36,006 bases of DNA from an uncultured Coriobacteriaceae bacterium (lineage in GTDB: Bacteria; Actinomycetota; Coriobacteriia; Coriobacteriales; Eggerthellaceae). Below are positions 4,029 through 31,607 of the stretch, piece by piece. Under the pieces are notes generated by a model, which was given only the letters and a program-made list of their open reading frames with translations, made no database searches and was not told the DNA's origin. The stretch covers positions 1-36,006 of the forward strand of contig CADAKR010000001.1 of assembly GCA_902788545.1 (NCBI GenBank). The letters are read 5' to 3'. The position numbers were made by a program, and so were the translations under genes. Every line of letters begins with the position of its first letter. Position 1 is the stretch's first letter.

Positions 4029-4052
4029 TGCCGTGTGTGCATTGCCGTGATC

Positions 4053-4080
4053 GGAAGTTTTGCTTCGCGCCAAACGTCCA
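4053..4080. repeat. Half copy of the GACGTC-centred palindromic repeat
   Basis: GGAAGTTTTGCTTCGCGC followed by CAAACGTCCA matches the left arm and loop of the palindrome seen at 24521-24570 (GGACGTTTTGCTTCGAGC then TGGACGTCTG). The right arm is missing; instead the sequence runs straight into the ribosome-binding site GGGAGGGAGG of the next gene. This is a truncated or decayed member of the intergenic repeat family. Confidence 0.55.
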
Positions 4081-4098
4081 ACTTTGGGAGGGAGGCAT

Positions 4099-7162: not shown

Positions 7163-7686
7163 GCGAAAGAGCACGCGAAGCCATCATGCGCCGTCGTCTT
7201 GCCAGCGCGCTTCTGGTGGTTGCCGCGCTGATCGTTTCCGTTCCCGTGTCGGGCGCCTTCATCGGCAAGGCTCCCGCTGCCGAAACAACAGCCCCTCCTT
7301 TTGCAGGCGTCCACGCACAAGCGCTCTCGCATGCGGGCGACATCGACTCGATGGCGAGCTTGCTCGAGGACATGGCGCGGGCGAGCGGGGAGGCGGATGT
7401 GCCCGCATGGTTCCAGCGTGACATCGGCTTTCTACCCGATGCCCGCGACGTGCGAACCGACGGCATCTCGACCGTGGGATATCTCGTCGACGATGCAGGT
7501 GATGACGTGCTTGCTTCGCTAATCGCCCACATGGAAGCGCGCGGCTGGACCGCCGTCCCGCTTGGCGACGTCGAAGGCGCCACGTTCGTGCGGCAAGCGG
7601 GTGCTTGCACGTGGGCGCTTGCAACGTGCACACCCGTCGGCTCGCACACCAGCGTCGTTTTCAGATGCGCGCAAGCCGCTCAATGA
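7159..7686 (+). CDS. Hypothetical exported or membrane-anchored protein of the tad locus
   Basis: A 175-aa protein of unknown function, coupled to the previous gene (ATGA at 7159). Residues 11-34 (RRRLASALLVVAALIVSVPV) form a signal peptide or signal anchor after an Arg-rich start. The mature part is a single domain with WFQRDIGFLPDARDV and two Cys near the C-terminus (GACTWALATCTPVG). I do not recognise the family. Its position as the last gene before the palindromic repeat, and the unbroken overlaps back to tadE, suggest it is an accessory of the pilus. Confidence 0.65.
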   Translation: MSERAREAIMRRRLASALLVVAALIVSVPVSGAFIGKAPAAETTAPPFAGVHAQALSHAGDIDSMASLLEDMARASGEADVPAWFQRDIGFLPDARDVRTDGISTVGYLVDDAGDDVLASLIAHMEARGWTAVPLGDVEGATFVRQAGACTWALATCTPVGSHTSVVFRCAQAAQ

Positions 7687-7688
7687 AA

Positions 7689-7738
7689 TTGGACGCTTGC
7701 CTCAGAGGCAGACGTCCACCTCTGAGGCAAGCGTCCAA
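7689..7738. repeat. Intergenic palindrome, copy 1
   Basis: Left arm 7689-7708 (TTGGACGCTTGCCTCAGAGG) pairs perfectly over 20 bp with right arm 7719-7738. The 10-nt loop CAGACGTCCA contains GACGTC. It begins 2 nt after the stop of the preceding gene and ends 20 nt before the DUF192 start. It belongs to the same family as the elements at 16843, 24521 and 31550. The arm sequence differs from those but all changes are compensated. Confidence 0.88.
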
Positions 7739-7758
7739 GTTGAATGGAAGGGAAGGTC

Positions 7759-13058: not shown

Positions 13059-13143
13059 GGGAGCGTGGCGGAATTGGCAGACGCAGCGGACTTAAAATCC
13101 GCCTCCTTCGGGAATGTGGGTTCGAGTCCCACCGCTCCTACCA
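13059..13143 (+). tRNA. tRNA-Leu (anticodon UAA)
   Basis: The acceptor arm GGGAGCG pairs with CGCTCCT (first pair G-U). The D arm is in GTGGCGGAATTGGCAGACGC. The anticodon stem GCGGA / TCCGC encloses the loop CTTAAAA, with anticodon TAA at 13093-13095. A long class II variable arm (CTCCTTCGGGAAT) and T arm GTGGGTTCGAGTCCCAC follow. CCA is encoded at 13141-13143. The 85-nt length and extra arm are as expected for leucine tRNA reading UUA/UUG. Confidence 0.96.
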
Positions 13144-16842: not shown

Positions 16843-16892
16843 TCGGACGCTCTGCTCTGAGCCGGACGTCCGGCTCAGAGCAGAGCGTCCGA
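16843..16892. repeat. Intergenic palindrome, copy 2: perfect 50-nt palindrome
   Basis: Arms 16843-16863 and 16872-16892 pair over 21 bp without a mismatch. The 8-nt centre GGACGTCC is itself palindromic, so all 50 nt form one perfect palindrome. It lies between the surface-protein stop (16827) and the ABC-F promoter (16948). The left arm contains GGACGCTCTGCTCTGAGCC. It is the most symmetrical member of the family. Confidence 0.9.
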
Positions 16893-24520: not shown

Positions 24521-24570
24521 CCGGACGTTTTGCTTCGAGCTGGACGTCTGGCTCGAAGCAAAACGTCCGG
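24521..24570. repeat. Intergenic palindrome, copy 3, in a divergent promoter region
   Basis: Arms 24521-24540 (CCGGACGTTTTGCTTCGAGC) and 24551-24570 pair over 20 bp without mismatch. The loop TGGACGTCTG contains the palindrome GACGTC. It lies between the start of the Rrf2 gene (-) and a TACAAT box (24581) before the RecJ fusion (+). It is therefore not downstream of either gene, and a terminator role for these genes is unlikely. Confidence 0.9.
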
Positions 24571-27600: not shown

Positions 27601-27958
27601 CGATGCGCAGAAACACGCGGGCGCGGGCTTCTTCACGGCCAGCAACATCGATGTTGCCGAGCGCGCTTCGCAACATGGCGGCGCGGTGTCGCAGGAATCC
27701 GCCACGTGCGCCATCGCCGTGTTCCGCGAGCTTGGCCTGATCGAGACGCGCACCGCCTACACGTCGGGCGAGGTCACGCGCTCGGTGCGCGTGATTCCCG
27801 ACGCCGCCAAGGTGGAATTGGAAACCAGCGTGCGCTACCGCGAGGGCCTCGATGAGCAGGCCATTTTCCAAACCTTCAAGCAGTGGGCGCTTCACGAGCC
27901 CCTCAAAACATTGGAACAGCAAATCCAGCGTCCCATCCTGCCCGGCTGCGCAATGTAG
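24623..27958 (+). CDS. recJ: RecJ exonuclease fused to a RecQ-like DEAH helicase
   Basis: A 1111-aa protein that joins two DNA-repair activities. Residues 1-~560 are RecJ, the 5'-3' single-strand exonuclease: metal motif GDFDVDG (85-91), VTVDCG (140s), DHH at 166-168, NAAGRLGDA (287-294), DHHA1 region with GSGRT and RFGGHEAAVG (410-419), and an OB-like part. Residues ~640-1111 form an SF2 helicase: Q-type start LHDKQREVLDCLNAG, motif I ATGRGKS (663-669), DEAH (768-771), ALTATA (801-806), and motif VI QMSGRAGRDG (945-954) as in RecQ. A winged-helix-like tail follows. The fusion would couple unwinding and resection. There is no frameshift between the halves. ATG 24623 has GAAGG 7 nt upstream; an in-frame upstream extension would translate the palindrome and is rejected. 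Confidence 0.92.
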   Translation: MSAQFKVNAADPHVVARLRERFALPQFIATVMAARGIATDEQADRFLSPSLDRDWRDPYEIPGIGPVVDALEAAIRDRRHIVVFGDFDVDGVSATTVLTRGLRALGGYATPFIPRRFDEGYALTDAAYQRIKQLNPEVIVTVDCGIACRDEVAAIVADGVDVVITDHHEPSELCPQGVPLVDPKTDPNCPSAILAGVGVALKVVQALGGRFGYPHLWRSYTDLATLGTIADLMPMRDENRALVADGLSHINGSPRPCLAALLGQAGVAGKSVSATDLSFSLIPRLNAAGRLGDAQVALDLLMTDDFDTACKLAADLEATNDKRRTIEAELSEVARAKAVEVYHGQRALVVAGEGWHEGVKGIVASRLVHTYGVPCLLFTICGDEARGSGRTVGQVNLFKAVESCEDLLTRFGGHEAAVGVTLPADKLDAFAERLCAYMDALPEDAFHPLVEIDACVSLEELTLENVEALQRLAPFGQENQVPCLLARDVTLGNARAVGAEKNHFSCTLSNGRASVAGIMFHCTDIEQLMRTSSLVNAAFEVQIDEWRGRRSVKAMLKSLSPAHVCAALEACFDPLNCRFVSDLYATSDEELVEKQPESPEDVEAYEADCAQNRAAWERRAQLQPERLEADVVRALIGDAPLHDKQREVLDCLNAGQSTLCIMATGRGKSLIFHVHAACRALRDHTASLFVYPLRALIADQAYHLTEALSRFGIAVAVLTGESSPEERRAIYDGLCAGEVDIVLTTPEFLHIHADELAQSGRIGLVVIDEAHHIGLAKAGNRPAYNALGGILHRLGDPTVLALTATADGGVARDIATILPIETCVFDQAERPNLRIDDHRGCKAREDYLANLVASGEKTVVYVNSRTSSVQLARALRSKAPHIALMIGFYNAGLSRAERARIEELFRTGHLTVLIATSAFGEGVNIPDIRHVVLYHLPYNEIEFNQMSGRAGRDGSPAGVHLLYTRKDAEVNEGILSAMTPDRDRMAQVYRALRDAQKHAGAGFFTASNIDVAERASQHGGAVSQESATCAIAVFRELGLIETRTAYTSGEVTRSVRVIPDAAKVELETSVRYREGLDEQAIFQTFKQWALHEPLKTLEQQIQRPILPGCAM

Positions 27959-28052: not shown

Positions 28053-28400
28053 GTCGGGCACGCAAGTTCAGATTTGCGCCATCAGCCGTTAAAAACGGGG
28101 TGAAATGGCGCACATCGCGGGTTGTGTGGTCGTAATCATGGCGCCTTGAGGACGCGTGGTTCTAAAACCCCAGGTCGCAGGTTGCGCGTCCTGCGGCAGC
28201 AGGCACACAAGTTCGATTCTCTGCCATTGCGGGGGTGAAAATGGCGCACATCGCGGGTTGTGTGGTCGTAATCATGGCGCCTCGAGGACGCGTGGTTCTA
28301 AAACCCCAGGTCGCGAGTTGCGCACCTTGCGACGGCGACCACACAACCTCGATTCTTCGCCATAAACGGGGCACATAAGTGCCGATTTGTGCCGTTTCGA
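28053..28400. repeat. Non-coding block of degenerate tandem repeats, period ~135 nt
   Basis: The two best units are 28097-28186 and 28232-28322. Over ~90 nt they differ only by one extra A, one T/C change and a 2-nt change, and both contain GGTTGTGTGGTCGTAATCAT and GTGGTTCTAAAACCCCAGGT. The 44-nt spacer after each, and the sequence before the first (from 28053), share a looser motif like CACAAGTTCGATTCTCTGCC, and a further partial copy follows to about 28400. In unit 2 GGTTGTGTGGTCG (28256-28268) is the perfect inverse of CGACCACACAACC (28336-28348), enclosing a structured 67-nt loop. Open frames across it on both strands are products of the repeat. The 489-nt gap between recJ and the MBL gene holds nothing else I recognise. 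Confidence 0.75.
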
Positions 28401-28447
28401 TTCCGTGATTGGTTTGAAATTCGACTTGTGTGTCTCAAGGCGCCCGT

Positions 28448-29107
28448 TTAGCGAACAATCCCGCCTTGGACGAGCCAGCGCTTTTCGCGGCCGATGGTGG
28501 TGAAGTCGTTGTGGCCGGTTAGGACGATGGTCTCGTCCGGAAGCTCGGCCAAGCGCTTCAACGACGCAGACATGGCGGCGGGGTCGCTTTCGGGAAAGTC
28601 GGTGCGCCCGTGCGTGCCGGCGAACAGCGTATCGCCCGACAGCAAGACGGGCATGCCGACTTGGCCGTCAGAGGGCTGCAGGAAGAAGCACAAACCGCCG
28701 GGCGTATGGCCGGGTGTGGCGATGACCTGCCATTTCATGGTGCCGATTTCGAGGATGTCGCCATCGGCAACCGTGCGGTCGACCGTGCAGGGCACAACCA
28801 GGCGACGATGGCGCGCATCGCCGCCTTCGCCCGTGATGAGCGGGGTGTCTTCGGCGCTGGCAATCACCGGGGCGCCAGTTGCCTCGCGCAGCTCGGCAGC
28901 GGCGCCGATGTGGTCGAAGTGCCCATGCGTGATGACGATGGCGTCGACAGTGCGCCCGTCCAGCGCATCCAGTATGCGATTGGCGTGGCACGACGGGTCC
29001 ACGACGATGCGGCTGGCGCCGTCGTCGACGATGTAGACGTTGTTTTCGATTGGCCCCATGACCAGGTACTCGACAGGCACGCAGGTGCCATTCACGGAAT
29101 GCGTCAC
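28448..29107 (-). CDS. Metallo-beta-lactamase-fold hydrolase (glyoxalase II-like)
   Basis: A 219-aa MBL-fold enzyme with a full set of metal ligands: H61-G-H63-F-D65-H66 (HGHFDHIG), His134 in TPGHTPGG, Asp159 in LLSGDTLF and His199 in LTGHND. This pattern is that of glyoxalase II-like hydrolases acting on thioesters or similar; the substrate is unknown. The GTG start at 29107 overlaps the rel stop (GTGA), so it is translationally coupled to rel. In many Gram-positive bacteria a gene of this type follows rel, often with dtd between; no dtd is seen here. The gene is complete. Confidence 0.87.
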   Translation of the reverse strand: MTHSVNGTCVPVEYLVMGPIENNVYIVDDGASRIVVDPSCHANRILDALDGRTVDAIVITHGHFDHIGAAAELREATGAPVIASAEDTPLITGEGGDARHRRLVVPCTVDRTVADGDILEIGTMKWQVIATPGHTPGGLCFFLQPSDGQVGMPVLLSGDTLFAGTHGRTDFPESDPAAMSASLKRLAELPDETIVLTGHNDFTTIGREKRWLVQGGIVR

Positions 29108-31549: not shown

Positions 31550-31607
31550 CCGGACGCCTTGCTTCGAGCCCGGCGTCCGGCTCGAAGCAAGGCGTCCGGC
31601 TCGAAGC
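31550..31607. repeat. Intergenic palindrome, copy 4, with an extra duplicated half arm
   Basis: Arms 31550-31569 and 31580-31599 pair over 20 bp (left arm includes GGACGCCTTGCTTCGAGC). The loop CCGGCGTCCG carries GGCGTCC instead of GGACGTCC. Directly after the right arm, CGTCCGGCTCGAAGC is repeated (first at 31574-31588, again at 31593-31607), so half of the element is present twice. It lies in the divergent region between rel (-) and dnaE (+). Confidence 0.87.

Follow-up and report, generated by a model that had tools for sequence, protein, structure and literature searches.

An intergenic arm-core-arm DNA repeat with a near-invariant core, found as a tandem array in an Eggerthellaceae genome and recurring across the family

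Bacterial genomes contain short palindromic repeats of the REP and BIME kind that are usually tied to one transposase through the sequence of their arms. The BIME-2 repeats of E. coli bind gyrase, and in MITEs the terminal repeats are the constant part. BIME-1 has linkers to which IHF binds, and BIME-2 repeats BIME-1-like units in tandem (PMC2817692). In REPINs the REPs are constant and the spacer is less conserved, and compensatory changes are common (PMC3116915). The CGTC-tagged REPs are dispersed palindromes of 20-40 bp to which their authors could assign no dedicated transposase, and there is no mention of Eggerthella, Slackia or Coriobacteria in that paper (PMC3733652).

Here we describe a repeat within a stretch of 36,006 nucleotides (the window) from a ruminant-gut Eggerthellaceae MAG (G000; 2.0 Mb, 74% complete). 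Its RecJ protein places it among the ruminant-gut MAGs of the family, the closest at 89% identity. The repeat lies in a gap of 489 nt between convergent genes. To the left a plus-strand gene, a fusion of DHH/RecJ-OB with a DEAD helicase, ends at 27958, and to the right a gene for a metallo-beta-lactamase fold occupies 28448-29107 on the minus strand. TRF finds a tandem array at 28097-28363 with a period of 136, 2.0 copies and 87% matches, in agreement with the first-pass annotation of this DNA, which had reported a tandem repeat of period 135-136 nt in a convergent gap. The 90-nt stretches that it called cores are near-identical (84/90, or 93%, for 28103-28192 against 28239-28328), slightly below the 96% that it gave, and the spacers that follow have diverged as it described, with only 30/46 identical in the next 46 nt. 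The 13-bp perfect inverted repeat reported for unit 2 closes a loop of exactly 67 nt, the matching arm of unit 1 is degenerate, and the partial units seen before and after the array are a degenerate outer arm and an additional arm pair (Table 1).

Written as modules, the array is r S R L r S R L r followed by a last degenerate r/R pair, where R is the arm on the plus strand and r the arm on the minus strand (each ~22-25 nt), and S and L are a short and a long linker. Neighboring arms pair as local hairpins across S. Each L carries the core CCCAGGTCG, and the 119 nt from R to r together with S make up the period of 136 nt. The wider core has the consensus GTTTNCCCAGGTCGCG, of which the window version is AAAACCCCAGGTCGC. 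The last pair, r4/R4, forms a further hairpin without a core, and the element model R1 matches 28369-28453.

Table 1. Features of the tandem array and its flanks, in window coordinates
Feature	Position	Strand	Remarks
Outer arm r1, degenerate	28059..28080	-	2 mismatches to arm pattern; pattern scans
Arm R1, left arm of unit 1	28107..28128	+	GGCGCACATCGCGGGTTGTGTG; pattern scan
Unit 1 (R1 - linker with core - r2)	28107..28225	+	119 nt
Core 1	28169..28177	+	CCCAGGTCG within TCTAAAACCCCAGGTCGC; conserved between loci and between species
Arm r2, right arm of unit 1	28204..28225	-	degenerate
Arm R2, left arm of unit 2	28243..28264	+	identical to R1; pattern scan
Unit 2 (R2 - linker with core - r3)	28243..28361	+	119 nt
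Left half of 13-bp perfect inverted repeat	28256..28268	+
Core 2	28305..28313	+	CCCAGGTCG
Right half of 13-bp perfect inverted repeat	28336..28348	-	67 nt between halves
Arm r3, right arm of unit 2	28340..28361	-	pattern scan
Extra degenerate arm r4	28372..28393	-	pattern scans
Extra degenerate arm R4	28411..28432	+	5 mismatches; 39 nt after r4

The window contains other palindromes. A second dispersed family, CCGGACG..TTGCTTCGAGC...GCTCGAAGCAA..CGTCCGG, is found near gene starts at 24521-24570 and 31550-31599, with a partial copy at 4052-4083; when it is read through, predicted N-termini lengthen. A perfect palindrome of 50 bp lies at 16843-16892 and an imperfect one of 56 nt at 7686-7741. 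We also considered by eye whether the arms of the array carry tRNA-like 3' ends, and dropped the idea; ARAGORN finds only a tRNA-Leu, at 13059.

The first-pass annotation had left the existence of other copies to a genome-wide search, and such copies are present. Within G000 blastn gives 12 matches, which come from five array loci and some isolated positions, the best non-self match having an E value of 7e-47. A relaxed arm pattern gives 37 matches in about 11 clusters, compared with 0 for the reversed control pattern. Thus the repeat is not a product of chance. Arm spacing alternates between 38-39 and 95-97 nt. The distance from R to r is 119 nt in 12 of 14 units, 118 nt in one and 108 nt in another (C39), and the linkers differ. 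When six diverged linkers are compared, CCCAGGTCG is where conservation is concentrated.

Plain blastn over 40 relatives revealed no copy of the repeat. A sequence-only profile built from 12 elements has matches in 8 of the 15 genus genomes, G000 included. The core is present in nearly all of the congener elements inspected, but that profile contains the core itself, so its conservation is best judged from G000, where the arms were found without using the core, together with the inverted repeats of other genera. The arms of the congener elements differ in sequence, as in GTATACAACCGCAAATTTGCTGCA of G014, and the two hairpins with the core between them are kept. G014 has 66 arm copies at about 20 loci with a 44/92 alternation, and despite its different arms it keeps the period of 136 in 26 of 30 same-strand distances. 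None of these 66 copies encloses a gene-sized segment, and there is no cargo-carrying copy among them. In the gap between a dGTPase-like and a PPase-like gene, names that were assigned by reading and not by domain scan, the element is present in G000 and absent from the same gene pair in G012 and G006. These empty gaps are between species, and could therefore also have arisen by loss.

Some variation among relatives was noted by eye. In one with the same recJ neighbor (L096) there are about 72 nt in the recJ gap, and downstream of recJ in the closest named relative (RGIG4359, L086) there is a different version, an inverted repeat of ~49 bp around GCGTTTTCCCAGGTCAG. At two loci of G007 (L058, L067) single arms repeat directly at about 31 nt after the second hairpin, so that the arm can act alone as a repeating module.

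Genomic context was analyzed in the complete genome G017 (3.38 Mb), of which 1.6 Mb were sampled, partly around known cores. All 23 exact cores in the sampled DNA lie in an inverted repeat scoring at least 13, where random positions of this genome have a median of 8 and a 99th percentile of 15. The arms belong to at least seven families (A to G), and over the 1.6 Mb they are almost always found in inverted pairs that flank a core. A hand count of 37 elements in a contiguously sampled 1.2 Mb extrapolates to ~100 for the genome. With genes called by our own codon-usage script, which makes the context counts approximate, 54 of 56 elements are intergenic, lying in codirectional (27), divergent (16) and convergent (11) gaps, near the share of intergenic bases in each (130:84:60 kb). 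The elements show no significant replication-strand preference (33/56, hand tally) and no significant proximity to parS-like sites (7 lie within 250 nt of one, where 3.9 would be expected; p 0.10). The parS-like 16-mer TGTTTCACGTGAAACA itself has 76 exact copies in the 1.6 Mb (L208-L287), most of them at 2.0-2.4 Mb and 63 of them outside predicted genes, a count far above expectation for parS. By eye, family A consists of three nested repeats, and an alignment of 21 of its copies reveals outer repeats that are nested, without an evident target-site duplication and with unclear element boundaries. A junction-spanning search for empty sites within G017 was confounded by another dispersed repeat.

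The core extends well beyond the genus. Exact matches to GTTTNCCCAGGTCGCG number 128, from 34 of the 138 family genomes, compared with 1 control match. The genomes surveyed are largely MAGs. Of 398 sampled genomes of the class 30 have it, 27 of them Eggerthellaceae and 3 from a single genus of a different family in the order, where the cores likewise sit within inverted repeats. Outside the genus of the window the core usually lies inside a single inverted repeat and not between twin hairpins. At 3 of 30 single loci from other genomes (L153, L170 and L173) the exact core has no arms, so not every exact core is an element. The number of cores is very uneven. Many complete relatives have none, there is one exact core in a genome that we take to be Eggerthella lenta DSM 2243 and there are four in what is presumably Slackia heliotrinireducens, the names given to these two (G088 and G132) being provisional. 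At L170, L171 and L172, from three other genera, the core is mirrored as ACCTGGG...CCCAGGT, resembling a dimer operator. A phage origin was considered and rejected; viral contigs contain 76 core matches, and those few whose inverted-repeat score is high look, by eye, internally repetitive.

In build the element is like REPs, BIMEs and REPINs, yet it is not a REPIN as defined. It shares with REPINs (PMC3116915) the two inverted repeats around a spacer, the extragenic and context-neutral placement (54/56 intergenic in G017), the species-specific subfamilies and a presumed non-autonomous nature. However, no specific RAYT is found nearby or co-occurring in the genomes searched, and here it is the core that is constant and the arms that vary, with a covariation term of +0.27 where REPINs have compensatory changes. 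BIMEs (PMC2817692) are the closest functional analogy. They too are extragenic and multi-copy with inverted REP-like arms and a linker, the regular spacing of arms in alternating orientation is found both in G000 and in G014, and the tandem in the window is like BIME-2. In contrast to BIMEs, the arm and core sequences are different, one core is common to many arm families and genera, and the arms are not found beside RAYT genes. The core also differs from the E. coli IHF consensus. The element resembles the CGTC-tagged REPs in being a dispersed palindrome for which no dedicated transposase has been found; we know of no core shared among those. Like MITEs it is about 120-270 bp long, intergenic and multi-copy with inverted repeats, but we recognize no constant terminal repeat, parent transposon or target duplication; neither the 66 arm copies of G014, none of them around a gene-sized segment, nor the arms in the sampled part of G017, almost all of which lie beside a core, give any sign of an autonomous transposon that shares them. 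Nor do the arms match the GTTRRRY and RYYYAAC sites of integron attC, since by eye they carry GTTGTGT or ACTTGTG and the units have no cassette gene. We found no paper describing the element in the literature searched, and among the papers that match the core string those listed look unrelated by title.

On balance we favor the interpretation of a short array in which a dispersed, non-coding, non-autonomous DNA element is repeated in tandem; the element would act as DNA and be read by a trans-acting protein. The elements are dispersed, intergenic and rigidly spaced, with a constant core between variable arms, and they are absent from one orthologous gap in two congeners. The unit consists of two inverted arms of ~22-25 nt, spanning 119 nt here, with the near-invariant core at a fixed place in the linker; its iteration every ~136 nt in the genus of the window lets neighboring arms form the local hairpins as well. 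It may multiply non-autonomously in the manner of REPINs and BIMEs, with arm families turning over as they amplify within a species. The putative protein would recognize the core together with the palindromic arms, and such recognition is probable because the arms differ from copy to copy while the core stays almost unchanged. An arrayed protein-binding site or remnants of a small mobile element had been among the suggestions of the first-pass annotation, and both draw support from the dispersed, intergenic, multi-locus family with its inverted arms and near-invariant core. The modular arms, the place of CCCAGGTCG as the conserved part of the linker and the recurrence across the bacterial family had escaped it. 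Counted against our interpretation are that no target-site duplication was recognized and no excision or insertion event observed, and that the pattern of conservation is the reverse of that in MITEs and REPINs. No transposase or integrase was found linked to the elements.

A duplicated structured RNA had also been proposed, and a structured non-coding RNA or a transcript-level element, such as a 3'-end or terminator hairpin, would be in keeping with the stable predicted hairpins (z -5.8 for a genus arm pair folded as DNA) and the convergent gap of the window copy. We nevertheless consider it unlikely. Arm mismatches on the core strand are as often G-T as A-C (45:51 and 15:14) and so show no excess of G-U, the RNAalifold covariation term for the consensus fold of the G000 set (+0.27) is about zero, and arms from the same locus in G000 are not more complementary than arms from different loci (p 0.15 and 0.09); we therefore read the element as DNA and not RNA. 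Against Rfam the region has only chance-level matches, all below the gathering score, and the three kinds of gap are used in background proportion. A promoter or terminator role does not fit, because the elements avoid genes and are indifferent to gene orientation, and a terminator was rejected on the finding that convergent gaps are not enriched in G017. A simple local tandem duplication of no wider meaning would account for a pair of copies 136 nt apart and 93% identical over 90 nt, but we give it almost no credence; it is refuted by the recurrence of the unit and its period elsewhere in G000 and in congeners. It is also quite improbable that these are ordinary REPINs whose RAYT gene lies in the quarter of the genome that the MAG lacks. 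The arm-core-arm unit does resemble a REP doublet, and a Y1_Tnp search of 15 genus genomes and nine genomes (one common to both sets) finds RAYT-sized Y1 proteins in 12 of the 15. However, cores without any Y1 match occur in G007 (96% complete), G088 and G019, RAYT genes adjoin different short palindromes where they are present, and the linker core is more conserved than the arms. The retrieved flanks of 20 Y1/RAYT-like loci contain no convincing core, and in the eight congeneric loci the arms that were tried are missing too.

The main rival to a dispersed non-autonomous element is a chromosome-wide protein-binding site, serving the nucleoid, looping or topology in the way of BIME-1 with IHF or BIME-2 with gyrase in E. 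coli, that is retained for its use to the host. On this view some conserved protein of the host would bind the core, phased inverted arms would join two or four sites, and copies would spread as useful and not selfish. It shares almost all its predictions with our interpretation, and we find it somewhat doubtful. In its favor, the core is conserved over the whole family and in one genus of another family of the order, and intergenic placement is neutral to context. Hairpin centers are separated by 125-126, about 133-136 and 167 nt, depending on species and arm family, and these distances bunch at whole numbers of helical turns (Rayleigh R 0.89 for a 10.5-bp turn, n=9, the values being partly related by descent and not independent; R 0.54 for the inner loops of the G017 types). 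The spacings of ~12, 13 and 16 turns are no more than suggestive of helical phasing. Against a host-maintained site, copies are uneven, with ~100 extrapolated in G017 and none in many complete relatives, they are absent at orthologous sites, and the strand bias with respect to replication is not significant.

Many arm families in many genera share only the core, and the logic of recognition must therefore differ from that of REPs and BIMEs. It is possible, and we put it forward tentatively, that these are chromosomal sites specific to the Coriobacteriales, in which one conserved protein would read a fixed 16-bp core and helically phased, drifting palindromic arms would give the DNA a defined fold, as a new nucleoid-organizing or mobilized system. 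A search for proteins that bind GTTTNCCCAGGTCGCG would be a direct test of recognition. The family that bears the element includes bacteria of the human gut, so this may be tested in cultured strains.
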